Shown here piece by piece: positions 11,860 through 50,327 of a DNA stretch of 64,000 bases (positions are counted from its first letter, which is position 1; every line of letters starts with the position of its first letter). The notes beneath the pieces are model-generated. The model did no database searches. It had not been told where the DNA came from and saw only the letters and a program-made list of their open reading frames with translations. Position numbers and translations under genes: made by a program. This stretch comes from Galaxea fascicularis (lineage: Eukaryota; Cnidaria; Anthozoa; Scleractinia; Euphylliidae): contig OX419344.1 of assembly GCA_948470475.1 (NCBI GenBank), forward strand, positions 16,949,495-17,013,494. The letters run 5' to 3'.

Positions 11860-11931
11860 GTTCCTGCATAAGAACCAGCTGAAAGACCTGCCTCCAGGAG
11901 TTTTTGATCACAATACAGGACTGTCGTCTCT
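11860..11931 (+). CDS. LRR exon 1 (one 24-residue leucine-rich repeat)
   Basis: The exon follows TTGATTGATTGTTAATAG and is followed by GTAAGT. It is 72 nt with phase-2 introns on both sides: the first base G completes the codon begun by CT at the end of the preceding exon. The translation starts FLHKNQLKDLPPGVFDHN and continues TGLSS plus Leu across the junction. It fits the LxxLxLxxNxLxxLPxGxFxxLxxL consensus. One LRR per 72-nt phase-2 exon is the layout known from LGR-type and Slit-like genes. LRR solenoids usually form extracellular binding surfaces. Lys at the variable position before the conserved Asn is Asn in exon 2. I see no other exon of the gene in this cassette with confidence. Confidence 0.8.
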
Positions 11932-11995
11932 GTAAGTGCAACTCTTCTTTACTTTTGTATTCCGAATTATCATTGATGCTATTGGGTCTGTCCAG

Positions 11996-12104
11996 TGAAG
12001 AGCAGATGGAGGTGGAAAGTGCACACGAGGAGTTCCAGTGTCATGAAGATACTGTCTACCGTTTGTATGGGATGTCTACCATACATTTATTCCGCATTGA
12101 CTGA
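11996..12104 (+). other. Possible alternative terminal exon downstream of LRR exon 1
   Basis: After a 64-nt gap that ends in GTCTGTCCAG, a frame compatible with the phase-2 LRR exon reads EEQMEVESAHEEFQCHEDTV and continues to a stop at 12102-12104. The same layout follows LRR exon 2 (17595-17703, identical) and, diverged, exon 3 (23728-23797, reading WEQIEIESALKELEYQYY before its stop). In the tandem array the frame stops after 14 codons. It could be a short terminal exon giving a truncated product, or simply conserved intron. I lean to the latter. Confidence 0.2.
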
Positions 12105-12256
12105 AAGCTGGCACTTGGTGCAAAACTCTCATTACATTATCAGTAGTAAGTCAAGCGCTACAACCAGTTGCAAAATTGTTGAGAAATTCGCAATCAAAAA
12201 CATCTTTTCTTTCTCTAAAACGCCGCTGTAAGAAATCTGTGAGATACAATGCACAT

Positions 12257-12348
12257 CCCCCTCCCTCTCCCCCTTTTAATGTTCTTTCTCAAAGTTTCGA
12301 GCATGGTGTTGCACTGTTAGCAACTTGATAAGAGGGGGAGGGGGAGGG
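12257..12348. repeat. C-rich/G-rich inverted repeat in cassette 1
   Basis: CCCCCTCCCTCTCCCCCTTT pairs with AGAGGGGGAGGGGGAGGG about 55 nt later, so the strand could fold into a hairpin or form G-quadruplex-type structures. It recurs at 17856-17947 in cassette 2, and a related arrangement lies at 20644-20745. Confidence 0.6.
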
Positions 12349-12533
12349 AAAGCGGAAGATCATGGAAACATCATTAAAGGCCAAATGACGTACAGTGTCT
12401 CAAGTATTCTTGCAACTCGTTGTAGCATTTTGGTCATTTGACTGCTTCTTTGTTTGCTGTATCATCGCTGTTATAAAATTAACATTCAGTACGGGAAAAG
12501 CCGAATGCAAGAACAAAACCTATGGAATAATAA

Positions 12534-17387: not shown

Positions 17388-18127
17388 AAAAACGGCTGGT
17401 AGTCAATGGGCTAATAACGAAGGTTTGTGGACAGCATGTTTTGATTGATTGTTAATAGGTTCCTGCATAACAACCAGCTGAAAGGCCTGCCTCCAGGAGT
17501 TTTTGATCACAATACAGGACTGTCGTCTCTGTAAGTGCAACTCTTCTTTACTTTTGTATTCCGAATTATCATTGATGCTATTGGGTCTGTCCAGTGAAGA
17601 GCAGATGGAGGTGGAAAGTGCACACGAGGAGTTCCAGTGTCATGAAGATACTGTCTACCGTTTGTATGGGATGTCTACCATACATTTATTCCGCATTGAC
17701 TGAAAGCTGGCACTTGGTGCAAAACTCTCATTACATTATCAGTAGTAAGTCAAGCGCTACAACCAGTTGCAAAATTGTTGAGAAATTCGCAATCAAAAAC
17801 ATCTTTTCTTTCTCTAAAACGCCGCTGTAAGAAATCTGTGAGATACAATGCACATCCCCCTCCCTCTCCCCCTTTTAATGTTCTTTCTCAAAGTTTCGAG
17901 CATGGTGTTGCACTGTTAGCAACTTGATAAGAGGGGGAGGGGGAGGGAAAGCGGAAGATCATGGAAACATCATTAAAGGCCAAATGACGTACAGTGTCTC
18001 AAGTATTCTTGCAACTCGTTGTAGCATTTTGGTCATTTGACTGCTTCTTTGTTTGCTGTATCATCGCTGTTATAAAATTAACATTCAGTACGGGAAAAGC
18101 CGAATGCAAGAACAAAACCTATGGAAC
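17388..18127 (+). repeat. LRR cassette 2, right part
   Basis: It is identical to 11789-12528 at offset 5,599 except for two bases, 17471 (C against G) and 17485 (G against A), both inside the LRR exon. From about 18128 the similarity switches to the slightly different cassette form seen again at 30320. Confidence 0.85.
17459..17530 (+). CDS. LRR exon 2 (one 24-residue leucine-rich repeat)
   Basis: The exon has the same acceptor (TTAATAG), donor (GTAAGT), 72-nt length and phase 2/2 as exon 1. The translation starts FLHNNQLKGLPPGVFDHN, then TGLSS and Leu across the junction. It differs from exon 1 by Lys to Asn just before the conserved Asn, a position on the concave face in LRR folds, and by Asp to Gly three residues before the PPG motif. 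These are the only two differences over 740 bp of aligned DNA. The exon is otherwise complete, with no stop or frameshift. Confidence 0.8.
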
Positions 18128-18560
18128 AATTAATAGTTCACAATTTTAGAAGGCTATTTTACAAAATTAATAAGCAAATAATGGAACACATGTGAACTTA
18201 GTGATGAAGTTGAGAAGAACAACTTACGCATTTAAATGTTTTATAAACAAATAACTCAAACCGAGCAGATAGTTCGCCCCATTTATTTAACAATTCGGGA
18301 AAGACTCCGAGAGAAATTGTAATGAAGGCATTTTTCTGTTCATCTGCAAACACTCCCAAACAATGACTATTTTCTTTACTAATCTTCAAACTAGTCGATC
18401 GATGCTTTTAATGTTAGGCTACGCGTTACTAATGTGTAATATTTAGCGACACACCGCATAAAAAATAGCTACAGATTCCAAAACCCTATTCCGAGAAATG
18501 AACTTCCCTGGAAGACAGTACACTCCTGTAGCCGAAAAAAAAGGGATCAAAGGCAAACAT
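18128..18560 (+). repeat. Cassette 3, first part
   Basis: This continues the array. Its sequence (for example AATAAGCAAATAATGGAACA and CATTTATTTAACAATTCG) matches 30327-30785 closely, whereas cassette 1 at the corresponding place is more distant. It ends in GGCAAACAT where a MITE begins. Confidence 0.7.
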
Positions 18561-18565
18561 GGCCC

Positions 18566-19299: not shown

Positions 19300-19304
19300 T
19301 TTAC

Positions 19305-21225: not shown

Positions 21226-21275
21226 TCATACCTCTTTATAGAATCCAATATGTCCAGTATCGGAAATTGCATTTC

Positions 21276-22600: not shown

Positions 22601-22664
22601 AACAGGGTTAGTGTGACAGTGTTGCATGTATAGCTAATGTATGAATATGGAAATCTTTCCCAAT

Positions 22665-23586: not shown

Positions 23587-23658
23587 GACCCTGAGCAGCA
23601 ACCATCTGGAACACCTGCCCCGTGGAGTCTTTGATAACAATACAAGGCTGCAATGGCT
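23587..23658 (+). CDS. LRR exon 3 (one 24-residue leucine-rich repeat, diverged)
   Basis: Acceptor TTGTTGGTAG, donor GTAAGT, 72 nt, phase 2/2. The translation starts TLSSNHLEHLPRGVFDNN, then TRLQW and Leu across the junction. The structural positions (Leu, Asn, Leu, Leu-Pro, Gly-Val-Phe, Leu) are all kept while many exposed positions differ from exons 1, 2 and 4-9. The surrounding non-coding sequence has diverged and been interrupted, yet the exon keeps its frame and both splice sites. That favours a functional exon over neutral repeat DNA. Confidence 0.8.
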
Positions 23659-26403: not shown

Positions 26404-26462
26404 ATAAGGCGCAAACTATGCCAAATCAGGCTCAAAACACTATCCGTGACAGTACCAAAAAC

Positions 26463-30163: not shown

Positions 30164-31534
30164 GACATTTCTCAAAGTTTGAATATATTTATGGCAAGGA
30201 TGTGATAAAACACTGTATAGCTACCTTAGATGGTAGATAGCTACCTTTGTTTGCCGTATCATCGCTACTATAATATTAACATTCAGTACGGAAAAAGCCG
30301 AATGCAAGAACAAAACCTATGGAACAATTAATAGCAACCAAATATTGGACAAGAGACTCACCTGACTAAATGTTCACAATTTTAGAAGGCTATTTTACAA
30401 AATTAATAAGCAAATAACCGAACACATGTGAACTTAGTGATGAAGTTGAGAAGAACAACTTACGCATTCAAATGTTTTATAAACAAATAACTCGAGCCGA
30501 GCAGATAATTCACCCCATTTATTTAACAATTCGTCAAAGACTCGACGAGGAATTGTAATGAAGGCATTTTTCTGTTCATCCGCAAACACTCCCAAACAAT
30601 GATAATAATCTTCAAACTAGTCGATCGATGCTTTTAATGTTAGGCTACGCGTTACTAATGTGTAATATTTAGCGACACACGGCATAAAAAATAGCTACAA
30701 ATTCCAAAACCATATTCCGAGATATCAACTTCCCTGGAAGACAGTACACTCCTGTACCCGAAAAAAAAGGGATCAAAGGCAAACATTAAAAGTGCACTAA
30801 AAGGCACTTACGTTTTATAAAGGTGTAAAGATGTGGGATAAAGAGCGTGGTTTGAGGGTCATGTTAAAGCTATGATATGCAAGCAACAGGTTCCTGGTAT
30901 TCCTTTCCCTCCTTATGTCTCTTCATCCTACCCTGCGAGCCGAGCCTCGTTCGATCTTCCTCAGTTGCCAAAATCGGGCAATCGACAAAATGTTCTTTCC
31001 CAATGGTGTGCAGATTTTGCAATGATTGTGAGACCGTACTATAACAGACATTGTCACAAATTTTCTAAACTGAAGGTCGGGTGTGACACATGGCTGAGAA
31101 CTTCATATTCATAAAGAAAAAATATTGGCAGCGATGTTACTTTAAACAACTTTATATCATACTGAAACGTTTGAAAGACGATTCTGTTAAAACTTAACAG
31201 AGTCATTGAGATTGAATAAAAGTGCAGAAACATTTTTTGTTCTATTTTGAATGCATAAATCCCGCTTTCTGGTGATGCTGTAGGTCAATAAAGTTAGTTA
31301 TTAAATTGCGTTTACAACTGCGAGAATCAACCTTCATTTGATTTCATTTACACAGTTTATATATGATTTATTTTCAGATACATCATTCTCAAAATATCAT
31401 CGATAATCCACACATTGTAGACCGGTCTCGTATATACCCAGGGATTACAGAACTTTATTAAGCACTGGTTATATACATGTAATACTCTTGATGGGAAATC
31501 GCATAGCTATACCAAGGTATAGCTACACTGCTAT

Positions 31535-31708
31535 GGCATTGCTAAACTAAAGAATGACCCAGGTGTTTGTCAACTCTTTAAGACTGCCTCGCAGATAATT
31601 CGTAAAGATGTACATGATACAGGTACAACACAACTTGACCAGGATATTAAAGCAGGCAATAAAGCTGCTGACACAGCTCGTCAGTATGATGATTGCTTGT
31701 TATTTTAA
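31535..31708 (+). pseudogene. 57-codon ORF fragment repeated in every array unit
   Basis: A stop-bounded frame without a start Met reads GIAKLKNDPGVCQLFKTASQ, then IIRKDVHDTGTTQLDQDIKA, then GNKAADTARQYDDCLLF and a stop. It recurs with almost no change in each unit (about 34941, 38338, 41729, 45120 and 48508). The composition is protein-like. An in-frame stop lies just upstream, so it is either a short exon or the C-terminal relic of a captured gene or transposon ORF. I do not recognise the family. Confidence 0.35.
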
Positions 31709-32379
31709 CTATTAATCAAATCCCACCAAAAGACGAATAAATATAGGAACACAAGTGCATCCATGTCAGAAATGTTACAAAGACGACTCTGATTCAGAAA
31801 GAGATAATAATATCTTAAAGTGCATATGAAGTAAAAAAGTATGTTCGCTTATTTAAAAGACCTTCAAAAGTGAGCAAGAATGGCATTTCCTGTTCTTTTA
31901 AGATATTCTTTTATTCCCGACTTTTTAAGTTTTAAATTGAAAATTGATGACGTCACAAATGGTTAAAGCAAGAGCGTAAATATTTGAGCGAAGCAATGCA
32001 ACTTGACTCCAGTAATGTACGTCAAGAAAGACACAGGACGACACTCCCTGTGCCGTTATTTTGCAAACGTTCTGCTTCTTGATCTGTTTCCTTCAGCATT
32101 CACTGTCCCAGGGGTTTTTGTCTCAATGTTGTTCACCGAAAAGACGTAAGGTATTATGGGATCACGTGAGTTTCAAGTAGGACCATCTGTCACCCCTCAT
32201 GAGGTCAAAAATGGAGTTATATGCCTCTTGACAAACAAGGCCTCGAGCCCAGAGTGTTACCATGACAACATCTCAGTGGGTATCATATTGCATCTTACCT
32301 GACTTACATTACTGGTCCCAAGTTTGAAGAAAAAAATATCGGCTTACGTGTTTATATGGACTATTTACATTTCCTTATA

Positions 32380-32969
32380 CAGTCAACTCTCTCGTAAGCG
32401 ACCACCCTTGGTGCACGACAAAGTGGTCGCTTACGGGAGGTGGTCGCTTACGGGAAAGATCAACAAAATAACTCTAACACTGGATTGATCATTTAATTAC
32501 ATAAACATATTACCTAATCAGCTAAAATTAGGCAAATAGAAACTAATTTATTTGATTTTTTTCACATGCAACAAGTTTCGGGAAAAGTAGAGTGGAGTGT
32601 ACAGTACTTGTCAATGTGTCTCATGTTAATTAAAATCACCTGAAATTTAAACCGATCGAACAAAACCTAGGAAAACAACGGGGTAGCGTCATTAAGAATT
32701 GAACTTCTGTCACTTCTGAGTAGTGATTTACTAACGATTATACGTGATTATGTTGGGTGGTCGCTTACCAGAAACAGAAAACAAAAGAATGTGTCAAATT
32801 TCTGGCCTAAAAAGTGGTCGCGGTCGCTTTAGAAATTTGAGTGGTGGTCGCTTACGAGAGAGCTCTGGGAACAGGATTTAACTGAGAGACACAAAACGGT
32901 TGTTTGCCAAGTGGTCGCTTACAGGAGGTGGTCGCTTACGAGAAGTGGTCACTATGAGAGAGTTGACTG
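32380..32969. mobile_element. TA-flanked MITE, copy in unit 1
   Basis: The ends CAGTCAACTCTCTCGTAAGC and GAGAGAGTTGACTG are inverse complements, and TA flanks both sides. This fits a Tc1/mariner-type target. The interior repeats GTGGTCGCTTACG several times in both halves. At 590 bp it has no transposase and depends on another element. The same element at the same place in six units shows that it inserted before the tandem amplification. Confidence 0.75.
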
Positions 32970-33290
32970 TAATTTTTTTTACAAAAGTGAGAACTCAATG
33001 CGGGAGAAATTTAAACCATAGTTTGAAGGAAAACATGATTATCGTAAGTGAGTAACTTACAACCTCTTAGCTTTAGTGAGTTGAGTCATTTTTATTCTTG
33101 ATATCGATTGAACGGATGTCTTAACTACAAAGCGGCCAGGATCGATACAAGTTTTGAGAAAAATAAAGATTACGAGCCTGTGAGACGCAATAGTCGTAAA
33201 TTTCACTTAGAACTGTCGCTTTTGTCAGTTTGCAAGCTTTACTTAGTAACGAAGGTTTGTGAACAGCATGTTTTGATTGATCGTTAATAG

Positions 33291-33356
33291 GCACCTGGGT
33301 AACAACCAGCTGAAAGACCTGCAACCAGGAGTCTTCAATAAAGAGCTGACGGAGCT
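33291..33356 (+). CDS. LRR exon 4 (22-residue leucine-rich repeat)
   Basis: Acceptor TTGATCGTTAATAG, donor GTAAGT, phase 2/2. It is 66 nt, two codons shorter than exons 1-3, but still a multiple of three. The translation starts HLGNNQLKDLQPGVFNKE, then LTE and Leu across the junction. The missing residues lie in the variable loop after GVF (DHNTGL-type in exon 1), so the LRR core is intact but shorter than the 24-residue class. Exons 5, 6, 7 and 9 have the same sequence. Confidence 0.8.
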
Positions 33357-35777
33357 GTAAGTGCAACTATTCTTAACTTTTGTATGGCGAACTATCATTG
33401 ACCTATTGTGTCTGTCCAGTGAAGAGCTGATGGAGGTGAAAATTGCACACGAGGAGTTCTAGTTTCATAAAGATACTATCTATCGTATGTATAGGATATC
33501 TACCATGCATTTATTCATTGACTTAGTGAAAGCTGGCATTTTGAGCAAAACTCTTATTACATTATCAGCAGTAAGTCAAGCGCTAGCATTTTGGTCGTTT
33601 GACTGCCTCTTTGTTTGCTATATAATCACTATTATAAAATTAACATTCAGTACGAGAAAAGCCGAATGCAAGAAACAAACCTATGGAATACTGAGTTAAG
33701 AGCAAGCAAATATTCTGAATATTGGATAAGAGACTCAGCTTTGTGACTGATGTTCACAATCTTAGGAGGCTATTTTACAACTCAGTAACCTCAATAAGCA
33801 AATAATCGAACAAATGTGAACTTAGCAATGTCCTTCGAGAAGACTGAACAACTTAATACGCATTTAAATCTTTTGTAAACAGGCAACTCAAACCCAGCAG
33901 GTAGTTCATCTCCGTTATGAATTCGGCAGAAAACTCGGAGAGGAATTGTAATAAAGACAGTTCCCAGTTTATTCGCAAACACTGCCAAACAATGACTATT
34001 TTCTCTAGAAACCTTTAAACTAGTCGGTCGATGCATGTGATCTTAGGCTACGCGTTACCAACGTGTAAAACTTAGCGACACACGGCATAAAAAATAGCTA
34101 CAAATTCCAAAAGCTTACGCCGGGAAATACATTTCCCTGGAAGACAGTACACTCCAATAGCCGAAAAAAAGAGGAAGAAAGGCAAAAATTCAAAAGTGGC
34201 CTAAAAGGCACTTACTTTTCTAAGCGTGTGGATATGGGATAAAGAGCATGGTTTGAGGGTCATGTTAAAGCTATGATATGCAAGCAACAGGTTCCTGGTA
34301 TTCCTTTCCCTCCTTATGTCTCTTCATCCTACCCTGCGAGCAAAGTCTCGTTCGATCTTCCTTGCCAAAATCGGGCAATCGACAAAATATTCTTTCCCAA
34401 TGGTGTGCGGATTTTGCAATGATTGTGAGACCGTACTATAACAGACATTGTCACAAATTTTCTGAACTGAAGGTCGGGTGTGACACATGGCTGAGAACTC
34501 CATATTCATAAAGAAAAAATGTTGGCAGCGATGTTACTTTAAACAACTTTATATCATACTGAAACGTTTGAAAGACGATTCTGTTAAAACTTAACAGAGT
34601 CATTGAGATTGAATAAAAGTGCAGAAACATTTTTTTGTTCTATTTTGAATGCATAAATCCCGCTTTCTGGTGATGCTGTAGGTCAATAAAGTTAGTTATT
34701 AAATTGCGTTCACAACTGCGAGAATCAACCTTCATTTGATTTCATTTACACAGTTTATATATGATTTATTTTCAGATACATCATTCTCAAAATATCATCG
34801 ATAATCCACACATTGTAGACCGGTCTCGTATATACCCAAGGATTACAGAACTTTATTAAGCACTGGTTATATACATGTAATACTCTTGATGGGAAATCGC
34901 ATAGCTATACCAAGGTATAGCTACACTGCTATGGCATTGCTAAACTAAAGAATGACCCAGGTGTGTGTCAACTCTTTAAGACTGCCTCGCAGATAATTCG
35001 TAAAGATGTACATGATACAGGTACAACACAACTTGACCAGGATATTAAAGCAGGCAATAAAGCTGCTGACACAGCTCGTCAGTATGATGATTGCTTGTTA
35101 TTTTAACTATTAATCAAATCCCACCAAAAGACGAATAAATATAGGAACACAAGTGCATCCATGTCAGAAATGTTACAAAGACGACTCTGATTCAGAAAGA
35201 GATAATAATATCTTAAAGTGCATATGAAGTAAAAAAGTATGTTCGCTTATTTAAAAGACCTTCAAAAGTGAGCAAGAATGGCATTTCCTGTTCTTTTAAG
35301 ATATTCTTTTATTCCCGACTTTTTAAGTTTTAAATTGAAAATTGATGACGTCACAAATGGTTAAAGCAAGAACGTAAATATTTGAGCGAAGCAATGCAAC
35401 TTGACTCCAGTAATGTACGTCAAGAGAGACACAGGACGACACTCCCTGTGCCGTTATTTTGCAAACGTTCTGCTTCTTGATCTGTTTCCTTCAGCATTCA
35501 CTGTCCCAGGGGTTTTTGTCTCAATGTTGTTCACCGAAAAGACGCAAGGTATTATGGGATCACGTGAGTTTCAGGTAGGACCATCTGTCACCCCTCATGA
35601 GGTCAAAAATGGAGTTATATGCCTCTTGACAAACAAGGCCTCGAGCCCAGAGTGTTACCATGACAACATCTCAGTGGGTATCATATTGCATCTTACCTGA
35701 CTTACATTACTGGTCCCAAGTTTGAAGAAAAAAATATCGGCTTACGTGTTTATATAGACTATTTACATTTCCTTATA

Positions 35778-36367
35778 CAGTCAACTCTCTCGTAAGCGAC
35801 CACCCTTGGTGCACGACAAAGTGGTCGCTTACGGGAGGTGGTCGCTTACGGGAAAGATCAACAAAATAACTCTAACACTGGATTGATCATTTAATTACAT
35901 AAACATATTACCTAATCAGCTAAAATTAGGCAAATAGAAACTAATTTATTTGATTTTTTTCACATGCAACAAGTTTCGGGAAAAGTAGAGTGGAGTGTAC
36001 AGTACTTTTCAATGTATCTCATGTTAATTAAAATCACCTGAAATTTAAACCGATCGAACAAAACCTAGGAAAACAACGGGGTAGCGTCATTAAGAATTGA
36101 ACTTCTGTCACTTCTGAGTAGTGATTTACTAACGATTATACGTGATTATGTTGGGTGGTCGCTTACCAGAAACAGAAAACAAAAGAATGTGTCAAATTTC
36201 TGGCCTAAAAAGTGGTCGCGGTCGCTTTAGAAATTTGAGTAGTGGTCGCTTACGAGAGAGCTCTGGGAACAGGATTTAACTGAGAGACACAAAACGGTTG
36301 TTTGCCAAGTGGTCGCTTACAGGAGGTGGTCGCTTACGAGAAGTGGTCACTATGAGAGAGTTGACTG
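35778..36367. mobile_element. TA-flanked MITE, copy in unit 2
   Basis: Same element and flanks as at 32380-32969 (offset 3,398). It was copied with the unit, not inserted separately. Confidence 0.75.
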
Positions 36368-36687
36368 TAATTTTTTTTACAAAAGTGAGAACTCAATGCG
36401 GGAGAAATTTAAACCATAGTTTGAAGGAAAACATGATTATCGTAAGTGAGTAACTTACAACCTCTTAGCTTTAGTGAGTTGAGTCATTTTTATTCTTGAT
36501 ATCGATTGAACGATGTCTTAACTACAAAGCGGCCAGGATCGATACAAGTTTTGAGAAAAATAAAGATTACGAGCCTGTGAGACGCAATAGTCGTAAATTT
36601 CACTTAGAACTGTCGCTTTTGTCAGTTTGCAAGCTTTACTTAGTAACGAAGGTTTGTGAACAGCATGTTTTGATTGATCGTTAATAG

Positions 36688-36753
36688 GCACCTGGGTAAC
36701 AACCAGCTGAAAGACCTGCAACCAGGAGTCTTCAATAAAGAGCTGACGGAGCT
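36688..36753 (+). CDS. LRR exon 5 (22-residue leucine-rich repeat)
   Basis: 66 nt, same sequence as exon 4 (HLGNNQLKDLQPGVFNKE...), with TTAATAG acceptor, GTAAGT donor and phase 2/2. If transcribed, it would splice in frame with any other LRR exon of the array. Confidence 0.8.
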
Positions 36754-39174
36754 GTAAGTGCAACTATTCTTAACTTTTGTATGGCGAACTATCATTGACC
36801 TATTGTGTCTGTCCAGTGAAGAGCTGATGGAGGTGAAAATTGCACACGAGGAGTTCTAGTTTCATAAAGATACTATCTATCGTATGTATAGGATATCTAC
36901 CATGCATTTATTCATTGACTTAGTGAAAGCTGGCATTTTGAGCAAAACTCTTATTACATTATCAGCAGTAAGTCAAGCGCTAGCATTTTGGTCGTTTGAC
37001 TGCCTCTTTGTTTGCTATATAATCACTATTATAAAATTAACATTCAGTACGAGAAAAGCCGAATGCAAGAAACAAACCTATGGAATACTGAGTTAAGAGC
37101 AAGCAAATATTCTGAATATTGGATAAGAGACTCAGCTTTGTGACTGATGTTCACAATCTTAGGAGGCTATTTTACAACTCAGTAACCTCAATAAGCAAAT
37201 AATCGAACAAATGTGAACTTAGCAATGTCCTTCGAGAAGACTGAACAACTTAATACGCATTTAAATCTTTTGTAAACAGGCAACTCAAACCCAGCAGGTA
37301 GTTCATCTCCGTTATGAATTCGGCAGAAAACTCGGAGAGGAATTGTAATAAAGACAGTTCCCAGTTTATTCGCAAACACTGCCAAACAATGACTATTTTC
37401 TCTAGAAACCTTTAAACTAGTCGGTCGATGCATGTGATCTTAGGCTACGCGTTACCAACGTGTAAAACTTAGCGACACACGGCATAAAAAATAGCTACAA
37501 ATTCCAAAAGCTTACGCCGGGAAATACATTTCCCTGGAAGACAGTACACTCCAATAGCCGAAAAAAAGAGGAAGAAAGGCAAAAATTCAAAAGTGGCCTA
37601 AAAGGCACTTACTTTTCTAAGCGTGTGGATATGGGATAAAGAGCATGGTTTGAGGGTCATGTTAAAGCTATGATATGCAAGCAACAGGTTCCTGGTATTC
37701 CTTTCCCTCCTTATGTCTCTTCATCCTACCCTGCGAGCAAAGTCTCGTTCGATCTTCCTTGCCAAAATCGGGCAATCGACAAAATATTCTTTCCCAATGG
37801 TGTGAGGATTTTGCAATGATTGTGAGACCGTACTATAACAGACATTGTCACAAATTTTCTGAACTGAAGGTCGGGTGTGACACATGGCTGAGAACTCCAT
37901 ATTCATAAAGAAAAAATGTTGGCAGCGATGTTACTTTAAACAACTTTATATCATACTGAAACGTTTGAAAGACGATTCTGTTAAAACTTAACAGAGTCAT
38001 TGAGATTGAATAAAAGTGCAGAAACATTTTTTTGTTCTATTTTGAATGCATAAATCCCGCTTTCTGGTGATGCTGTAGGTCAATAAAGTTAGTTATTAAA
38101 TTGCGTTCACAACTGCGAGAATCAACCTTCATTTGATTTCATTTACACAGTTTATATATGATTTATTTTCAGATACATCATTCTCAAAATATCATCGATA
38201 ATCCACACATTGTAGACCGGTCTCGTATATACCCAAGGATTACAGAACTTTATTAAGCACTGGTTATATACATGTAATACTCTTGATGGGAAATCGCATA
38301 GCTATACCAAGGTATAGCTACACTGCTATGGCAATGCTAAACTAAAGAATGACCCAGGTGTGTGTCAACTCTTTAAGACTGCCTCGCAGATAATTCGTAA
38401 AGATGTACATGATACAGGTACAACACAACTTGACCAGGATATTAAAGCAGGCAATAAAGCTGCTGACACAGCTCGTCAGTATGATGATTGCTTGTTATTT
38501 TAACTATTAATCAAATCCCACCAAAAGACGAATAAATATAGGAACACAAGTGCATCCATGTCAGAAATGTTACAAAGACGACTCTGATTCAGAAAGAGAT
38601 AATAATATCTTAAAGTGCATATGAAGTAAAAAAGTATGTTCGCTTATTTAAAAGACCTTCAAAAGTGAGCAAGAATGGCATTTCCTGTTCTTTTAAGATA
38701 TTCTTTTATTCCCGACTTTTTAAGTTTTAAATTGAAAATTGATGACGTCACAAATGGTTAAAGCAAGAACGTAAATATTTGAGCGAAGCAATGCAACTTG
38801 ACTCCAGTAATGTACGTCAAGAGAGACACAGGACGACACTCCCTGTGCCGTTATTTTGCAAACGTTCTGCTTCTTGATCTGTTTCCTTCAGCATTCACTG
38901 TCCCAGGGGTTTTTGTCTCAATGTTGTTCACCGAAAAGACGTAAGGTATTATGGGATCACGTGAGTTTCAAGTAGGACCATCTGTCACCCCTCATGAGGT
39001 CAAAAATGGAGTTATATGCCTCTTGACAAACAAGGCCTCGAGCCCAGAGTGTTACCATGACAACATCTCAGTGGGTATCATATTGCATCTTACCTGACTT
39101 ACATTACTGGTCCCAAGTTTGAAGAAAAAAATATCGGCTTACGTGTTTATATAGACTATTTACATTTCCTTATA

Positions 39175-39764
39175 CAGTCAACTCTCTCGTAAGCGACCAC
39201 CCTTGGTGCACGACAAAGTGGTCGCTTACGGGAGGTGGTCGCTTACGGGAAAGATCAACAAAATAACTCTAACACTGGATTGATCATTTAATTACATAAA
39301 CATATTACCTAATCAGCTAAAATTAGGCAAATAGAAACTAATTTATTTGATTTTTTTCACATGCAACAAGTTTCGGGAAAAGTAGAGTGGAGTGTACAGT
39401 ACTTTTCAATGTATCTCATGTTAACTAAAATCACCTGAAATTTAAACCGATCGAACAAAACCTAGGAAAACAACGGGGTAGCGTCATTAAGAATTGAACT
39501 TCTGTCACTTCTGAGTAGTGATTTACTAACGATTATACGTGATTATGTTGGGTGGTCGCTTACCAGAAACAGAAAACAAAAGAATGTGTCAAATTTCTGG
39601 CCTAAAAAGTGGTCGCGGTCGCTTTAGAAATTTGAGTAGTGGTCGCTTACGAGAAAGCTCTGGGAACAGGATTTAACTGAGAGACACAAAACGGTTGTTT
39701 GCCAAGTGGTCGCTTACAGGAGGTGGTCGCTTACGAGAAGTGGTCACTATGAGAGAGTTGACTG
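39175..39764. mobile_element. TA-flanked MITE, copy in unit 3
   Basis: 590 bp with CAGTCAACT and AGTTGACTG ends and TA flanks, offset 3,397 from unit 2. Confidence 0.75.
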
Positions 39765-40084
39765 TAATTTTTTTTACAAAAGTGAGAACTCAATGCGGGA
39801 GAAATTTAAACCATAGTTTGAAGGAAAACATGATTATCGTAAGTGAGTAACTTACAACCTCTTAGCTTTAGTGAGTTGAGTCATTTTTATTCTTGATATC
39901 GATTGAACGATGTCTTAACTACAAAGCGGCCAGGATCGATACAAGTTTTGAGGAAAATAAAGATTACGAGCCTGTGAGACGCAATAGTCGTAAATTTCAC
40001 TTAGAACTGTCGCTTTTGTCAGTTTGCAAGCTTTACTTAGTAACGAAGGTTTGTGAACAGCATGTTTTGATTGATCGTTAATAG

Positions 40085-40150
40085 GCACCTGGGTAACAAC
40101 CAGCTGAAAGACCTGCAACCAGGAGTCTTCAATAAAGAGCTGACGGAGCT
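40085..40150 (+). CDS. LRR exon 6 (22-residue leucine-rich repeat)
   Basis: 66 nt, identical to exons 4, 5, 7 and 9 by eye, with intact acceptor and donor and phase 2/2. Confidence 0.8.
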
Positions 40151-42565
40151 GTAAGTGCAACTATTCTTAACTTTTGTATGGCGAACTATCATTGACCTAT
40201 TGTGTCTGTCCAGTGAAGAGCTGATGGAGGTGAAAATTGCACACGAGGAGTTCTAGTTTCATAAAGATACTATCTATCGTATGTATAGGATATCTACCAT
40301 GCATTTATTCATTGACTTAGTGAAAGCTGGCATTTTGAGCAAAACTCTTATTACATTATCAGCAGTAAGTCAAGCGCTAGCATTTTGGTCGTTTGACTGC
40401 CTCTTTGTTTGCTATATAATCACTATTATAAAATTAACATTCAGTACGAGAAAAGCCGAATGCAAGAAACAAACCTATGGAATACTGAGTTAAGAGCAAG
40501 CAAATATTCTGAATATTGGATAAGAGACTCAGCTTTGTGACTGATGTTCACAATCTTAGGAGGCTATTTTACAACTCAGTAACCTCAATAAGCAAATAAT
40601 CGAACAAATGTGAACTTAGCAATGTCCTTCGAGAAGACTGAACAACTTAATACGCATTTAAATCTTTTGTAAACAGGCAACTCAAACCCAGCAGGTAGTT
40701 CATCTCCGTTATGAATTCGGCAGAAAACTCGGAGAGGAATTGTAATAAAGACAGTTCCCAGTTTATTCGCAAACACTGCCAAACAATGACTATTTTCTCT
40801 AGAAACCTTTAAACTAGTCGGTCGATGCATGTGATCTTAGGCTACGCGTTACCAACGTGTCGAAAATACACGGCATAAAAAATAGCTACAAATTCCAAAA
40901 GCTTACGCCGGGAAATACATTTCCCTGGAAGACAGTACACTCCAATAGCCGAAAAAAAGAGGAAGAAAGGCAAAAATTCAAAAGTGGCCTAAAAGGCACT
41001 TACTTTTCTAAGCGTGTGGATATGGGATAAAGAGCATGGTTTGAGGGTCATGTTAAAGCTATGATATGCAAGCAACAGGTTCCTGGTATTCCTTTCTCTC
41101 CTTATGTCTCTTCATCCTACCCTGCGAGCAAAGTCTCGTTCGATCTTCCTTGCCAAAATCGGGCAATCGACAAAATATTCTTTCCCAATGGTGTGCGGAT
41201 TTTGCAATGATTGTGAGACCGTACTATAACAGACATTGTCACAAATTTTCTGAACTGAAGGTCGGGTGTGACACATGGCTGAGAACTCCATATTCATAAA
41301 GAAAAAATGTTGGCAGCGATGTTACTTTAAACAACTTTATATCATACTGAAACGTTTGAAAGACGATTCTGTTAAAACTTAACAGAGTCATTGAGATTGA
41401 ATAAAAGTGCAGAAACATTTTTTTGTTCTATTTTGAATGCATAAATCCCGCTTTCTGGTGATGCTGTAGGTCAATAAAGTTAGTTATTAAATTGCGTTCA
41501 CAACTGCGAGAATCAACCTTCATTTGATTTCATTTACACAGTTTATATATGATTTATTTTCAGATACATCATTCTCAAAATATCATCGATAATCCACACA
41601 TTGTAGACCGGTCTCGTATATACCCAAGGATTACAGAACTTTATTAAGCACTGGTTATATACATGTAATACTCTTGATGGGAAATCGCATAGCTATACCA
41701 AGGTATAGCTACACTGCTATGGCATTGCTAAACTAAAGAATGACCCAGGTGTGTGTCAACTCTTTAAGACTGCCTCGCAGATAATTCGTAAAGATGTACA
41801 TGATACAGGTACAACACAACTTGACCAGGATATTAAAGCAGGCAATAAAGCTGCTGACACAGCTCGTCAGTATGATGATTGCTTGTTATTTTAACTATTA
41901 ATCAAATCCCACCAAAAGACGAATAAATATAGGAACACAAGTGCATCCATGTCAGAAATGTTACAAAGACGACTCTGATTCAGAAAGAGATAATAATATC
42001 TTAAAGTGCATATGAAGTAAAAAAGTATGTTCGCTTATTTAAAAGACCTTCAAAAGTGAGCAAGAATGGCATTTCCTGTTCTTTTAAGATATTCTTTTAT
42101 TCCCGACTTTTTAAGTTTTAAATTGAAAATTGATGACGTCACAAATGGTTAAAGCAAGAACGTAAATATTTGAGCGAAGCAATGCAACTTGACTCCAGTA
42201 ATGTACGTCAAGAGAGACACAGGACGACACTCCCTGTGCCGTTATTTTGCAAACGTTCTGCTTCTTGATCTGTTTCCTTCAGCATTCACTGTCCCAGGGG
42301 GTTTTGTCTCAATGTTGTTCACCGAAAAGACGTAAGGTATTATGGGATCACGTGAGTTTCAAGTAGGACCATCTGTCACCCCTCATGAGGTCAAAAATGG
42401 AGTTATATGCCTCTTGACAAACAAGGCCTCGAGCCCAGAGTGTTACCATGACAACATCTCAGTGGGTATCATATTGCATCTTACCTGACTTACATTACTG
42501 GTCCCAAGTTTGAAGAAAAAAATATCGGCTTACGTGTTTATATAGACTATTTACATTTCCTTATA

Positions 42566-43155
42566 CAGTCAACTCTCTCGTAAGCGACCACCCTTGGTGC
42601 ACGACAAAGTGGTCGCTTACGGGAGGTGGTCGCTTACGGGAAAGATCAACAAAATAACTCTAACACTGGATTGATCATTTAATTACATAAACATATTACC
42701 TAATCAGCTAAAATTAGGCAAATAGAAACTAATTTATTTGATTTTTTTCACATGCAACAAGTTTCGGGAAAAGTAGAGTGGAGTGTACAGTACTTTTCAA
42801 TGTATCTCATGTTAATTAAAATCACCTGAAATTTAAACCGATCGAACAAAACCTAGGAAAACAACGGGGTAGCGTCATTAAGAATTGAACTTCTGTCACT
42901 TCTGAGTAGTGATTTACTAACGATTATACGTGATTATGTTGGGTGGTCGCTTACCAGAAACAGAAAACAAAAGAATGTGTCAAATTTCTGGCCTAAAAAG
43001 TGGTCGCGGTCGCTTTAGAAATTTGAGTAGTGGTCGCTTACGAGAGAGCTCTGGGAACAGGATTTAACTGAGAGACACAAAACGGTTGTTTGCCAAGTGG
43101 TCGCTTACAGGAGGTGGTCGCTTACGAGAAGTGGTCACTATGAGAGAGTTGACTG
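42566..43155. mobile_element. TA-flanked MITE, copy in unit 4
   Basis: Same 590-bp element, TA-flanked, same position within the unit. Confidence 0.75.
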
Positions 43156-43475
43156 TAATTTTTTTTACAAAAGTGAGAACTCAATGCGGGAGAAATTTAA
43201 ACCATAGTTTGAAGGAAAACATGATTATCGTAAGTGAGTAACTTACAACCTCTTAGCTTTAGTGAGTTGAGTCATTTTTATTCTTGATATCGATTGAACG
43301 ATGTCTTAACTACAAAGCGGCCAGGATCGATACAAGTTTTGAGGAAAATAAAGATTACGAGCCTGTGAGACGCAATAGTCGTAAATTTCACTTAGAACTG
43401 TCGCTTTTGTCAGTTTGCAAGCTTTACTTAGTAACGAAGGTTTGTGAACAGCATGTTTTGATTGATCGTTAATAG

Positions 43476-43541
43476 GCACCTGGGTAACAACCAGCTGAAA
43501 GACCTGCAACCAGGAGTCTTCAATAAAGAGCTGACGGAGCT
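43476..43541 (+). CDS. LRR exon 7 (22-residue leucine-rich repeat)
   Basis: 66 nt, same sequence and splice sites as exons 4-6, phase 2/2. Confidence 0.8.
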
Positions 43542-45962
43542 GTAAGTGCAACTATTCTTAACTTTTGTATGGCGAACTATCATTGACCTATTGTGTCTGT
43601 CCAGTGAAGAGCTGATGGAGGTGAAAATTGCACACGAGGAGTTCTAGTTTCATAAAGATACTATCTATCGTATGTATAGGATATCTACCATGCATTTATT
43701 CATTGACTTAGTGAAAGCTGGCATTTTGAGCAAAACTCTTATTACATTATCAGCAGTAAGTCAAGCGCTAGCATTTTGGTCGTTTGACTGCCTCTTTGTT
43801 TGCTATATAATCACTATTATAAAATTAACATTCAGTACGAGAAAAGCCGAATGCAAGAAACAAACCTATGGAATACTGAGTTAAGAGCAAGCAAATATTC
43901 TGAATATTGGATAAGAGACTCAGCTTTGTGACTGATGTTCACAATCTTAGGAGGCTATTTTACAACTCAGTAACCTCAATAAGCAAATAATCGAACAAAT
44001 GTGAACTTAGCAATGTCCTTCGAGAAGACTGAACAACTTAATACGCATTTAAATCTTTTGTAAACAGGCAACTCAAACCCAGCAGGTAGTTCATCTCCGT
44101 TATGAATTCGGCAGAAAACTCGGAGAGGAATTGTAATAAAGACAGTTCCCAGTTTATTCGCAAACACTGCCAAACAATGACTATTTTCTCTAGAAACCTT
44201 TAAACTAGTCGGTCGATGCATGTGATCTTAGGCTACGCGTTACCAACGTGTAAAACTTAGCGACACACGGCATAAAAAATAGCTACAAATTCCAAAAGCT
44301 TACGCCGGGAAATACATTTCCCTGGAAGACAGTACACTCCAATAGCCGAAAAAAAGAGGAAGAAAGGCAAAAATTCAAAAGTGGCCTAAAAGGCACTTAC
44401 TTTTCTAAGCGTGTGGATATGGGATAAAGAGCATGGTTTGAGGGTCATGTTAAAGCTATGATATGCAAGCAACAGGTTCCTGGTATTCCTTTCTCTCCTT
44501 ATGTCTCTTCATCCTACCCTGCGAGCAAAGTCTCGTTCGATCTTCCTTGCCAAAATCGGGCAATCGACAAAATATTCTTTCCCAATGGTGTGCGGATTTT
44601 GCAATGATTGTGAGACCGTACTATAACAGACATTGTCACAAATTTTCTGAACTGAAGGTCGGGTGTGACACATGGCTGAGAACTCCATATTCATAAAGAA
44701 AAAATGTTGGCAGCGATGTTACTTTAAACAACTTTATATCATACTGAAACGTTTGAAAGACGATTCTGTTAAAACTTAACAGAGTCATTGAGATTGAATA
44801 AAAGTGCAGAAACATTTTTTTGTTCTATTTTGAATGCATAAATCCCGCTTTCTGGTGATGCTGTAGGTCAATAAAGTTAGTTATTAAATTGCGTTCACAA
44901 CTGCGAGAATCAACCTTCATTTGATTTCATTTACACAGTTTATATATGATTTATTTTCAGATACATCATTCTCAAAATATCATCGATAATCCACACATTG
45001 TAGACCGGTCTCGTATATACCCAAGGATTACAGAACTTTATTAAGCACTGGTTATATACATGTAATACTCTTGATGGGAAATCGCATAGCTATACCAAGG
45101 TATAGCTACACTGCTATGGCATTGCTAAACTAAAGAATGACCCAGGTGTGTGTCAACTCTTTAAGACTGCCTCGCAGATAATTCGTAAAGATGTACATGA
45201 TACAGGTACAACACAACTTGACCAGGATATTAAAGCAGGCAATAAAGCTGCTGACACAGCTCGTCAGTATGATGATTGCTTGTTATTTTAACTATTAATC
45301 AAATCCCACCAAAAGACGAATAAATATAGGAACACAAGTGCATCCATGTCAGAAATGTTACAAAGACGACTCTGATTCAGAAAGAGATAATAATATCTTA
45401 AAGTGCATATGAAGTAAAAAAGTATGTTCGCTTATTTAAAAGACCTTCAAAAGTGAGCAAGAATGGCATTTCCTGTTCTTTTAAGATATTCTTTTATTCC
45501 CGACTTTTTAAGTTTTAAATTGAAAATTGATGACGTCACAAATGGTTAAAGCAAGAACGTAAATATTTGAGCGAAGCAATGCAACTTGACTCCAGTAATG
45601 TACGTCAAGAGAGACACAGGACGACACTCCCTGTGCCGTTATTTTGCAAACGTTCTGCTTCTTGATCTGTTTCCTTCAGCATTCACTGTCCCAGGGGTTT
45701 TTGTCTCAATGTTGTTCACCGAAAAGACGTAAGGTATTATGGGATCACGTGAGTTTCAAGTAGGACCATCTGTCACCCCTCATGAGGTCAAAAATGGAGT
45801 TATATGCCTCTTGACAAACAAGGCCTCGAGCCCAGAGTGTTACCATGACAACATCTCAGTGGGTATCATATTGCATCTTACCTGACTTACATTACTGGTC
45901 CCAAGTTTGAAGAAAAAAATATCGGCTTACGTGTTTATATAGACTATTTACATTTCCTTATA

Positions 45963-46535
45963 CAGTCAACTCTCTCGTAAGCGACCACCCTTGGTGCACG
46001 ACAAAGTGGTCGCTTACGGGAAAGATCAACAAAATAACTCTAACACTGGATTGATCATTTAATTACATAAACATATTACCTAATCAGCTAAAATTAGGCA
46101 AATAGAAACTAATTTATTTGATTTTTTTCACATGCAACAAGTTTCGGGAAAAGTAGAGTGGAGTGTACAGTACTTTTCAATGTATCTCATGTTAATTAAA
46201 ATCACCTGAAATTTAAACCGATCGAACAAAACCTAGGAAAACAACGGGGTAGCGTCATTAAGAATTGAACTTCTGTCACTTCTGAGTAGTGATTTACTAA
46301 CGATTATACGTGATTATGTTGGGTGGTCGCTTACCAGAAACAGAAAACAAAAGAATGTGTCAAATTTCTGGCCTAAAAAGTGGTCGCGGTCGCTTTAGAA
46401 ATTTGAGTAGTGGTCGCTTACGAGAGAGCTCTGGGAACAGGATTTAACTGAGAGACACAAAACGGTTGTTTGCCAAGTGGTCGCTTACAGGAGGTGGTCG
46501 CTTACGATAAGTGGTCACTATGAGAGAGTTGACTG
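45963..46535. mobile_element. TA-flanked MITE, copy in unit 5 (573 bp)
   Basis: Same element, but one of two adjacent 17-bp GAGGTGGTCGCTTACGG repeats near the left end is missing, probably lost by slippage or unequal pairing. Confidence 0.75.
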
Positions 46536-46857
46536 TACTTTTTTTTTACAAAAGTGAGAACTCAATGCGGGAGAAATTTAAACCATAGTTTGAAGGAAAA
46601 CATGATTATCGTAAGTGAGTAACTTACAACCTCTTAGCTTTAGTGAGTTGAGTCATTTTTATTCTTGATATCGATTGAACGGATGTCTTACCTACAAAGC
46701 GGCCAGGATCGATACAATTTTTGAGGAAAATAAAGATTACGAGCCTGTGAGACGCAATAGTCGTAAATTTCACTTAGAACTGTCGCTTTTGTCAGTTTGC
46801 AAGCTTAACTTAGTAACGAAGGTTTGTGAACAGCATGTTTTGATTGATTGTTAATAG

Positions 46858-46929
46858 GCACCTGGATAACAACCAGCTGAAAGACCTGCAACCAGGAGTC
46901 TTTGATCACAATACAAAGCTGACAGAGCT
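46858..46929 (+). CDS. LRR exon 8 (24-residue leucine-rich repeat, variant)
   Basis: Acceptor TTGATTGTTAATAG, donor GTAAGT, 72 nt, phase 2/2. The translation starts HLDNNQLKDLQPGVFDHN, then TKLTE and Leu across the junction. Compared with exons 4-7 and 9, Gly is replaced by Asp at the third residue and the loop after GVF has the longer DHNTKL form as in exons 1-3. Within the array this is the only exon that differs, and its flanks differ as well, while the rest of the unit does not. Confidence 0.8.
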
Positions 46930-49350
46930 GTAAGTGCAACTATTCTTAACTTTTGTATGGCGAACTATCATTGACCTATTGTGTCTGTCCAGTGAAGAGC
47001 TGATGGAGGTGAAAATTGTACACGAGGAGTTGTAATTTCATAAAGATACTATTTATCGCTTGTATAGGATATCTACCATGCATTTATTCATTGACTTAGT
47101 GAAAGCTGGCATTTTGAGCAAAACTCTTATTACATTATCAGCAGTAAGTCAAGCGCTAGCATTTTGGTCGTTTGACTGCCTCTTTGTTTGCTATATAATC
47201 ACTATTATAAAATTAACATTCAGTACGAGAAAAGCCGAATGCAAGAAACAAACCTATGGAATACTGAGTTAAGAGCAAGCAAATATTCTGAATATTGGAT
47301 AAGAGACTCAGCTTTGTGACTGATGTTCACAATCTTAGGAGGCTATTTTACAACTCAGTAACCTCAATAAGCAAATAATCGAACAAATGTGAACTTAGCA
47401 ATGTCCTTCGAGAAGACTGAACAACTTAATACGCATTTAAATCTTTTGTAAACAGGCAACTCAAACCCAGCAGGTAGTTCATCTCCGTTATGAATTCGGC
47501 AGAAAACTCGGAGAGGAATTGTAATAAAGACAGTTCCCAGTTTATTCGCAAACACTGCCAAACAATGACTATTTTCTCTAGAAACCTTTAAACTAGTCGG
47601 TCGATGCATGTGATCTTAGGCTACGCGTTACCAACGTGTAAAACTTAGCGACACACGGCATAAAAAATAGCTACAAATTCCAAAAGCTTACGCCGGGAAA
47701 TACATTTCCCTGGAAGACAGTACACTCCAATAGCCGAAAAAAAGAGGAAGAAAGGCAAAAATTCAAAAGTGGCCTAAAAGGCACTTACTTTTCTAAGCGT
47801 GTGGATATGGGATAAAGAGCATGGTTTGAGGGTCATGTTAAAGCTATGATATGCAAGCAACAGGTTCCTGGTATTCCTTTCCCTCCTTATGTCTCTTCAT
47901 CCTACCCTGCGAGCAAAGTCTCGTTCGATCTTCCTTGCCAAAATCGGGCAATCGACAAAATATTCTTTCCCAATGGTGCGCGGATTTTGCAATGATTGTG
48001 AGACCGTACTATAACAGACATTGTCACAAATTTTCTGAACTGAAGGTCGGGTGTGACACATGGCTGAGAACTCCATATTCATAAAGAAAAAATGTTGGCA
48101 GCGATGTTACTTTAAACAACTTTATATCATACTGAAACGTTTGAAAGACGATTCTGTTAAAACTTAACAGAGTCATTGAGATTGAATAAAAGTGCAGAAA
48201 CATTTTTTTGTTCTATTTTGAATGCATAAATCCCGCTTTCTGGTGATGCTGTAGGTCAATAAAGTTAGTTATTAAATTGCGTTCACAACTGCGAGAATCA
48301 ACCTTCATTTGATTTCATTTACACAGTTTATATATGATTTATTTTCAGATACATCATTCTCAAAATATCATCGATAATCCACACATTGTAGACCGGTCTC
48401 GTATATACCCAAGGATTACAGAACTTTATTAAGCACTGGTTATATACATGTAATACTCTTGATGGGAAATCGCATAGCTATACCAAGGTATAGCTACACT
48501 GCTATGGCATTGCTAAACTAAAGAATGACCCAGGTGTGTGTCAACTCTTTAAGACTGCCTCGCAGATAATTCGTAAAGATGTACATGATACAGGTACAAC
48601 ACAACTTGACCAGGATATTAAAGCAGGCAATAAAGCTGCTGACACAGCTCGTCAGTATGATGATTGCTTGTTATTTTAACTATTAATCAAATCCCACCAA
48701 AAGACGAATAAATATAGGAACACAAGTGCATCCATGTCAGAAATGTTACAAAGACGACTCTGATTCAGAAAGAGATAATAATATCTTAAAGTGCATATGA
48801 AGTAAAAAAGTATGTTCGCTTATTTAAAAGACCTTCAAAAGTGAGCAAGAATGGCATTTCCTGTTCTTTTAAGATATTCTTTTATTCCCGACTTTTTAAG
48901 TTTTAAATTGAAAATTGATGACGTCACAAATGGTTAAAGCAAGAACGTAAATATTTGAGCGAAGCAATGCAACTTGACTCCAGTAATGTACGTCAAGAGA
49001 GACACAGGACGACACTCCCTGTGCCGTTATTTTGCAAACGTTCTGCTTCTTGATCTGTTTCCTTCAGCATTCACTGTCCCAGGGGTTTTTGTCTCAATGT
49101 TGTTCACCGAAAAGACGTAAGGTATTATGGGATCACGTGAGTTTCAAGTAGGACCATCTGTCACCCCTCATGAGGTCAAAAATGGAGTTATATGCCTCTT
49201 GACAAACAAGGCCTCGAGCCCAGAGTGTTACCATGACAACATCTCAGTGGGTATCATATTGCATCTTACCTGACTTACATTACTGGTCCCAAGTTTGAAG
49301 AAAAAAATATCGGCTTACGTGTTTATATAGACTATTTACATTTCCTTATA

Positions 49351-49940
49351 CAGTCAACTCTCTCGTAAGCGACCACCCTTGGTGCACGACAAAGTGGTCG
49401 CTTACGGGAGGTGGTCGCTTACGGGAAAGATCAACAAAATAACTCTAACACTGGATTGATCATTTAATTACATAAACATATTACCTAATCAGCTAAAATT
49501 AGGCAAATAGAAACTAATTTATTTGATTTTTTTCACATGCAACAAGTTTCGGGAAAAGTAGAGTGGAGTGTACAGTACTTTTCAATGTATCTCATGTTAA
49601 TTAAAATCACCTGAAATTTAAACCGATCGAACAAAACCTAGGAAAACAACGGGGTAGCGTCATTAAGAATTGAACTTCTGTCACTTCTGAGTAGTGATTT
49701 ACTAACGATTATACGTGATTATGTTGGGTGGTCGCTTACCAGAAACAGAAAACAAAAGAATGTGTCAAATTTCTGGCCTAAAAAGTGGTCGCGGTCGCTT
49801 TAGAAATTTGAGTAGTGGTCGCTTACGAGAGAGCTCTGGGAACAGGATTTAACTGAGAGACACAAAACGGTTGTTTGCCAAGTGGTCGCTTACAGGAGGT
49901 GGTCGCTTACGAGAAGTGGTCACTATGAGAGAGTTGACTG
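49351..49940. mobile_element. TA-flanked MITE, copy in unit 6
   Basis: 590 bp, same ends and flanks as in the other units. Confidence 0.75.
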
Positions 49941-50261
49941 TAATTTTTTTTACAAAAGTGAGAACTCAATGCGGGAGAAATTTAAACCATAGTTTGAAGG
50001 AAAACATGATTATCGTAAGTGAGTAACTTACAACCTCTTAGCTTTAGTGAGTTGAGTCATTTTTATTCTTGATATCGATTGAACGGATGTCTTAACTACA
50101 AAGCGGCCAGGATCGATACAAGTTTTGAGAAAAATAAAGATTACGAGCCTGTGAGACGCAATAGTCGTAAATTTCACTTAGAACTGTCGCTTTTGTCAGT
50201 TTGCAAGCTTTACTTAGTAACGAAGGTTTGTGAACAGCATGTTTTGATTGATCGTTAATAG

Positions 50262-50327
50262 GCACCTGGGTAACAACCAGCTGAAAGACCTGCAACCAGG
50301 AGTCTTCAATAAAGAGCTGACGGAGCT
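50262..50327 (+). CDS. LRR exon 9 (22-residue leucine-rich repeat)
   Basis: 66 nt, identical to exons 4-7 by eye, intact splice sites, phase 2/2. It is the last LRR exon I find in the window. No exon encoding an LRR cap, membrane segment or stop follows on the + strand with confidence. Confidence 0.8.

Follow-up and report, generated by a model that had tools for sequence, protein, structure and literature searches.

A candidate LGR-type receptor gene with an array of leucine-rich repeat exons in the coral Galaxea fascicularis

The stony coral Galaxea fascicularis carries, in the 64,000-nucleotide stretch of its genome analyzed here (the window, C10:16949495-17013494, in a genome of 416.6 Mb in 170 contigs), nine short exons that each encode one leucine-rich repeat (LRR). 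These exons are very probably modules of a single receptor gene of ~260 kb, predicted to run from CUB and immunoglobulin (Ig) domains through LRRNT and LRRs to a seven-transmembrane (7TM) domain, and to belong with the relaxin-receptor-like LGRs. The array appears to form a functional LGR ectodomain that is expanding and diversifying. Positions are given in window coordinates, also where they lie beyond the window, unless a contig (e.g., C10) is named.

The Exon Array

An earlier note on this DNA had described nine exons of one LRR each, 72 or 66 nt long, on the + strand, with AG/GTAAGT borders and phase 2 on both sides, and this description proved exact at every position. All nine are preceded by AG and followed by the donor GTAAGTGC (AG..GTAAGT). 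When the window was scanned for the motif (AG, then a phase-2 open stretch of 66 or 72 nt beginning like an LRR, then GTAAGT), there were nine hits on the + strand and none on the - strand, as compared with one in total over 100 dinucleotide shuffles used as the control.

The first three exons are 72 nt long and lie at 11860..11931 (FLHKNQLKDLPPGVFDHNTGLSS), 17459..17530 (FLHNNQLKGLPPGVFDHNTGLSS), and 23587..23658 (TLSSNHLEHLPRGVFDNNTRLQW, which has a duplicate at 84374). They are followed by the exons of six tandem units, of which units 1 to 4 (33291..33356, 36688..36753, 40085..40150, and 43476..43541) and unit 6 (50262..50327) carry the same 66-nt exon, HLGNNQLKDLQPGVFNKELTE, while unit 5 carries a 72-nt exon that is unlike those of its sister units (46858..46929, HLDNNQLKDLQPGVFDHNTKLTE). 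The nine exons, all on the + strand, comprise only five different sequences, the five 66-nt exons being identical.

The array continues past the window, with cassettes (array exons) at 84374, 98044, and 174330, and the gene has at least 12 known array cassettes, all in phase 2/2 with the donor GTAAGTGC and a near-identical acceptor. A sensitive profile scan of a 264-kb region recovered the 11 cassettes of the window and its near flank, and nothing degenerate rose above noise. Two other approaches were set aside: a naive LRR regular expression in six frames gave only noise, and a 69-nt reading at 134531 (PIQSNSIAKEQRNSICMGTVFV) from a broad LRR-exon scan was taken as chance.

The Predicted Enclosing Gene

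The earlier note had made a host gene in the flanking sequence its check, and such a gene was found, with CUB, Ig, LRRNT, additional LRR, and 7TM exons in matching phases. The second half of a CUB domain (-12015..-11822, phase 2 in, 1 out) and an Ig exon (-3773..-3537, phase 1/1) were found through matches to P0046 and P0161, two proteins with CUB-like and Ig parts ahead of LRRNT. The LRRNT exon lies within the window at 703..823 (+, 121 nt, phase 1 in, 2 out, TATAG/CG..CT/GTAAGTA) and encodes (A)CPKPCVCAPWLSDRSLTRVTCAGMQLTSVPRPLPLTTAV(L); it was located using tblastn with P0026, P0161, and P0046, together with reading of the sequence, and the LRRNT part of P0026 aligned to 705-818.

Downstream of the array there are eight further 72-nt LRR exons in phase 2/2 (loci L035 and L032), starting at 234934, 238252, 239011, 239490, 240428, 241302, 243543, and 245344, which span 234934-245415 and differ from the array exons in sequence and acceptors. 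A 63-nt reading at 241302 is a shorter version of the 72-nt exon there. They are followed by an intact one-exon 7TM domain of 343 aa that starts in phase 2 (246032-247064, +). The intron phases agree along the whole series, from CUB through Ig, LRRNT, array, and downstream LRRs to 7TM.

In the spliced exons, Pfam recognized LRR_8 (1.5e-9), Ig_2 (1.1e-5), LRRNT (3.1e-4), and CUB (0.04), with LRR_8 alone passing its curated cut-off and the other three falling below theirs. A search with the protein of the joined exons returned 184 proteins, and the best 120 listed include 19 variable lymphocyte receptors (VLRs) of hagfish and lamprey and some coral proteins. The same order as at this locus, CUB-Ig-LRR-7tm_1, is found within one protein model of Stylophora, P0238, for which the source name is "Relaxin receptor 1." An AlphaFold model of the relative P0046 (mean pLDDT 68.7) had a single use, placing the LRR strands on the x-L-x-L segments. 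Two leads were dropped: an LRRCT or single-pass receptor ending, since no LRRCT was found nearby and a 7TM exon was, and P0021 as a lead to the gene, which gave no result.

One might ask whether the nine exons are instead divided among two or more neighboring genes. Pieces of the window at 20.9-62 kb recur with 92-97% identity between 80 and 116 kb, possibly as a second gene, and the 10 kb directly 3' of the window lie outside the exon map. Against this, and within the sequence covered, LRRNT DNA has eight matches in the genome, none of them between the exon at 703..823 and the next 7TM exon, and no 7TM match on C10 between 16.73 and 17.1955 Mb is among the best 54 of 221 candidates scored. 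The array is thus bounded by one LRRNT match and, among the 7TM matches listed, by one 7TM match. We consider several genes to be improbable, and the locus is read here as one gene of ~260 kb with at least 20 LRRs.

Probable LGR Identity

The predicted 7TM exon is of the rhodopsin type (7tm_1, 5.5e-28, model positions 2-260 of 260). Among solved structures, the closest 7TM is that of Relaxin receptor 1 (RXFP1, 2.8e-43), followed by TSHR (2.6e-26), LHCGR, an unnamed family-1 G-protein-coupled receptor (GPCR), and FSHR; the best solved match without an LGR name is the B1 bradykinin receptor (5e-10). The 7TM part of P0238 matches eight places in this genome at 61-68% identity, including C10:17195515-17195976 (+), with other places lower (best 54 of 221 candidates scored). 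The LRR exons 5' of the 7TM exon have the order, strand, and phases that would fit one protein, as in the P0238 model. Its predicted 7TM domain places the gene among the LGRs, with RXFP1 as the nearest solved structure, and the LGR precedent that the earlier note had cited for the exon layout proves apt for a gene ending in such a 7TM exon. For LDLa, the N-terminal module of type C LGRs (RXFP), none was reported in the Pfam scan of the spliced exons or in P0238, in a gene whose first exons were not found and with no search of the locus aimed at LDLa.

Duplication and Exchange of Cassettes

The six tandem units form a recent duplication at 30245..51548 (+), each near-identical unit being ~3.4 kb long with one LRR exon. 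Any two units are separated by 6 to 32 substitutions, a difference that argues against copies made in error by the assembly. Together with the further cassettes, and in a gene with a 7TM end, they bear out the proposal that cassette duplication is expanding an LRR ectodomain. The number of cassettes would grow by unequal crossing-over of exon-plus-intron units.

Unit 5 carries a local tract of divergence around its exon (46508..47060, +, approximately -348 to +197 of the exon, with approximate ends). This tract makes up ~15% of the compared length and holds 16 of the 17 private substitutions of the unit, as well as a 1-nt insertion and the 6-nt difference in exon length; the remaining private substitution and a 17-nt deletion fall beyond its ends. 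We read the tract as the result of exchange (gene conversion or double crossover), either into unit 5 or among its sisters, and short tracts may be exchanged between cassettes in this way more generally. No donor was found in a local comparison with the other cassette loci examined.

Other duplications were observed in the same region. A 2.4-kb direct duplication, 99.8% identical (9381-11791 and 12528-14938), flanks the first array exon, and in places it is 80-86% similar to stretches within the 3.4-kb units. Pieces of 20934-61596 recur at 80195-116500 with 92-97% identity, as a larger duplication inside the gene; this downstream copy includes the array exon at 98044, and a copy of the six-unit tandem was not seen in the parts compared.

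Intactness and Selection

We examined 42 cassettes: 11 from the window and its near flank, 20 and 10 from genome searches, and one in L034. They comprise 27 DNA types and 26 peptides. All but one are intact, the exception being L047 on C16, where a 1-nt insertion is accompanied by loss of the donor. Exon copies that are carried along by intron duplications and remain unused would be an alternative reading of the array; intron-exon units have clearly undergone recent tandem duplication, and the broken cassette tells us that decay does occur. However, 41 of the 42 are intact, the profile scan of 264 kb contained no degenerate cassettes above noise, the splice signals are uniform, and the 7TM exon is intact and constrained. 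The eight scaffold residues (below) show one nonsynonymous change against 14-15 synonymous ones. Such neutral debris is, in our view, highly improbable.

Eight residues (2, 7, 10, 13, 14, 15, 16, and 21) have one amino acid each across the cassettes, with more than one codon at six of them, and residue 5 has a single change. The most variable residues are 22, 23, 1, 20, 11, 3, 9, and 4. Residues 22, 23, 1, 3, and 4 correspond to positions 2, 3, 5, 7, and 8 of the highly conserved segment (LxxLxLxxN numbering), on the concave strand. The earlier note had called the cassettes interchangeable, which holds for their phase and fails for their sequence, as the concave-face residues differ between cassettes.

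When changes were counted by parsimony on two trees, there were 5.2-5.4 nonsynonymous changes per site at the five concave residues, 1.3-1.5 at ten others, and 0.06 at the eight scaffold residues, where synonymous changes amount to 1.8-1.9 per site. The flanking intron has 1.23 changes per site, so that the concave nonsynonymous rate is about four times higher.

A second test does not depend on a tree. For 27 cassettes with longer flanks (351 pairs), 58 pairs had flanks that aligned over 350 bases or more and were no more than 7.5% apart, and these close pairs are not mutually independent. Nine of them do not differ in their exons, and of the remaining 49, 48 have an exon more diverged than the flanks; the single exception is L041/L046 (exon 4.3%, flanks 4.5%). 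Three pairs were compared for the array at the window: 11860/17459 (exon 2/72, flanks 1/670), 11860/98044 (9/72 and 51/1235), and 23587/84374 (3/72 and 34/1094). All 14 of their exon differences are nonsynonymous (2/2, 9/9, and 3/3), and pairings with 46858, which are more distant, show one synonymous change against 13-14 nonsynonymous ones.

The 7TM exon, compared between sister loci, served as a control. Nonsynonymous and synonymous differences number 1 and 10 for L030/L032 (introns 20/1244), 10 and 20 for L031/L032 (introns 181/658), and 12 and 21 for L030/L031. Compared with the changes in the cassettes, these ratios indicate that the 7TM domain is constrained while the array diversifies. 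In L030/L032 the last LRR exon is unchanged (0/72), and it is the only one of the eight downstream LRR exons that this conservation control covers.

Gene conversion that keeps introns alike while exons retain older differences would also produce exons more diverged than their flanks, with no positive selection. The flanks of L042/L046 are identical over 379 bases whereas their exons differ at 3/69; L042 and L050 lie 1.6 Mb apart with flanks only 0.9% different; and unit 5 bears a scar of tract exchange. Homogenization alone, however, does not place the differences on concave residues, nor does it yield exclusively nonsynonymous changes in the three window pairs above, but synonymous ones do occur in other pairs. 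As a full account we find it doubtful, though it deserves serious attention. Our preferred explanation remains that the concave face is driven by selection for recognizing changing ligands, which could be a microbe, a symbiont, self/non-self, or prey.

Serial or Optional Use of the Cassettes

We favor a mechanism in which the cassettes are spliced in series, with the length of the array setting the length of the LRR horseshoe, and in which the downstream LRRs and 7TM domain would couple binding to G-protein signaling. Alternatively, splicing might pick subsets of the array, giving many ectodomains per gene and being Dscam-like in effect. The shared phase, donor, and near-same acceptor of all 12 known array exons mean that any subset would be in frame, the introns are kilobase-sized, and five identical copies would be redundant if used in series. 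A constitutive layout of one LRR per exon is ordinary in LGR genes, which we count against optional exons, and the relative P0046 has four or five consecutive LRRs of this kind, as fits serial use; with 344 residues from a 1713-base contig, it is probably derived from a cDNA. The gene model P0026 likewise has such LRRs in a row. We therefore regard optional exons as rather unlikely and retain serial splicing as the preferred mechanism.

Several points weigh against our overall reading and should be kept in mind. Serial splicing is inferred from the genome, and a receptor with five identical cassettes one after another would be peculiar. Beyond the 7TM exon, which supplied the membrane domain that the earlier note had sought by extension, that extension brought no signal peptide: neither it nor the first half of the CUB domain was found in the flanking sequence examined. 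The exon map covers all but 57.5 kb of the first 200 kb of flank and all but 5 kb of L033, with about 50 kb more lying outside it, and the array and LRR counts are minima. Cassettes from outside the window are the best matches of similarity searches, a sampling that favors intact ones. At the concave residues, synonymous changes are themselves frequent (3.7-4.3 per site on 2.4 sites), and the ratio of nonsynonymous to synonymous rates within this class is only 1.3-1.4. Recombination inflates tree-based counts, homogenized introns could account for part of the contrast between exon and intron, and some close pairs are rich in synonymous changes (e.g., L048/L052, with four nonsynonymous and four synonymous).

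Sister Genes

Matches to cassette DNA number at least 40, chiefly at C10:15.87-17.71 Mb and C3:17.23-17.53 Mb; since 40 of 95 and 40 of 127 candidates were scored, this number is a lower bound. The order LRRNT-cassettes-7TM recurs at C10:17.496-17.789 Mb (+), C4:1.386-1.269 Mb (-), and C3:17.545-17.104 Mb (-). There are also two incomplete sets: C10:16.188-15.866 Mb (-) has LRRNT and cassettes with no 7TM match after them among those listed, and C10:16.487-16.729 Mb (+) has cassettes and 7TM without an LRRNT match.

Regular tandem spacings of 3.4 kb at the window, 3337 bp at C10:15.95 Mb, and 2650 bp at C10:17.55 Mb suggest separate amplifications. The cassettes and near flanks at the latter two places are only 0.9% apart, which points to a recent common source and counts against full independence.

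On C3, the region 17104347-17545269 (-) has two LRRNT exons (17545096 and 17405931), many cassettes, and one listed 7TM match (17104347); this is a pair of genes or else a pair of 5' halves with a 7TM exon in common. Within it, at C3:17227301-17267789 (-), pairs of cassettes 6121-6122 bp apart occur three times, and a larger unit with two LRR exons thus appears to have been amplified there.

Other Elements in and Near the Window

At 25355-27195 (-) there are open frames that, by eye only, are like a DIRS-type tyrosine recombinase and RNase H; this DIRS-like element has a 95-96% copy at 154001-159356. Open frames at 1381-1839 and 21909-22575 look by eye like pieces of a non-LTR reverse transcriptase. 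ARAGORN called a tRNA-Asp (anticodon atc) at 9083-9155 (-), perhaps a tRNA-like repeat.

Comparison With Known Systems

RXFP1 (LGR7), a type C LGR, resembles this gene in having a rhodopsin-type 7TM domain after an LRR ectodomain, and its 7TM domain is the closest one solved. One LRR per exon is the LGR gene layout. Unlike RXFP1, the present gene has CUB and Ig domains ahead of LRRNT and an array of LRR exons that is multiplying and diversifying. P0238 and the CUB-Ig-LRR proteins P0026, P0046, P0161, and P0235-P0237 (from Pocillopora, Stylophora, and one further contig) share the CUB-Ig-LRRNT-LRR order as far as the models reach, though most are partial gene models, and the likeness rests on proteins and not on exon arrays. 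Twenty or more exons of 66-72 nt spread over ~260 kb may be the reason that these models are mostly partial.

In the literature searched, cnidarians and placozoans have LGRs that bear CUB domains or are very long, and corals have expanded their GPCRs (PMC9545775, PMC4079206, PMC10236652, PMC12314368, PMC9897584). Nematostella LGR-4 has a CUB plus an LDL domain and Trichoplax LGR-15 has 34 LRRs (PMC9545775); like the present gene, they are pre-bilaterian LGRs with an extra N-terminal CUB or a very long LRR tract. In its accessible portions, that paper mentions neither exon amplification nor concave-face diversification, and the word immunoglobulin is absent from its text. We found no description of a GPCR of the CUB-Ig-LRR type whose LRR exon array amplifies and diversifies in a search that left most subscription journals and bioRxiv outside its reach.

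The VLRs of lamprey and hagfish have 24-residue LRR modules very like the cassettes, and they provide the best match and 19 of the 120 listed proteins. Their antigen binding takes place on the concave surface (PMC4731796). The present gene is not a VLR: it ends in a 7TM domain, has no LRRCT that we could find, and appears complete in the germline, with no sign of somatic assembly in the genome sequence; when a short LRRCT model was run against the whole genome, it gave one place only, on C11. The parallel with jawless vertebrates drawn in the earlier note fits the variation of the concave face and loses its specificity in the positional profile, which other LRR proteins have as well. A VLR-specific variability profile was rejected (rho 0.70 to VLRs versus 0.73 to the other LRR proteins compared), and the likeness to VLRs therefore lies in module sequence and in concave-face change between duplicates. 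The phases of the array exons would also permit a Dscam-type alternative exon array.

In the way its ectodomain evolves, the putative gene resembles recognition receptors. It is conceivable, if not likely, that the coral LGR family forms a recognition repertoire in which cassettes are amplified and exchanged in the germline, and spliced subsets or individual-specific arrays present many concave surfaces per colony. Such a repertoire, to which we give as modest a weight as to optional exons, would be the GPCR counterpart of an assembled LRR receptor system, with a common module for G-protein-coupled signaling. LGRs are familiar chiefly as conserved receptors for hormones. The LGR-type gene described here seems to evolve in the manner of a recognition gene, with an ectodomain that apparently grows by exon amplification and presumed ligand-contact residues that outpace the introns. 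The rhodopsin-type receptor is the most abundant domain among amplified coral families (34/192 groups, PMC10236652), and the gene makes it testable whether the rhodopsin-type receptors expanded in corals recognize symbionts, microbes, or self.

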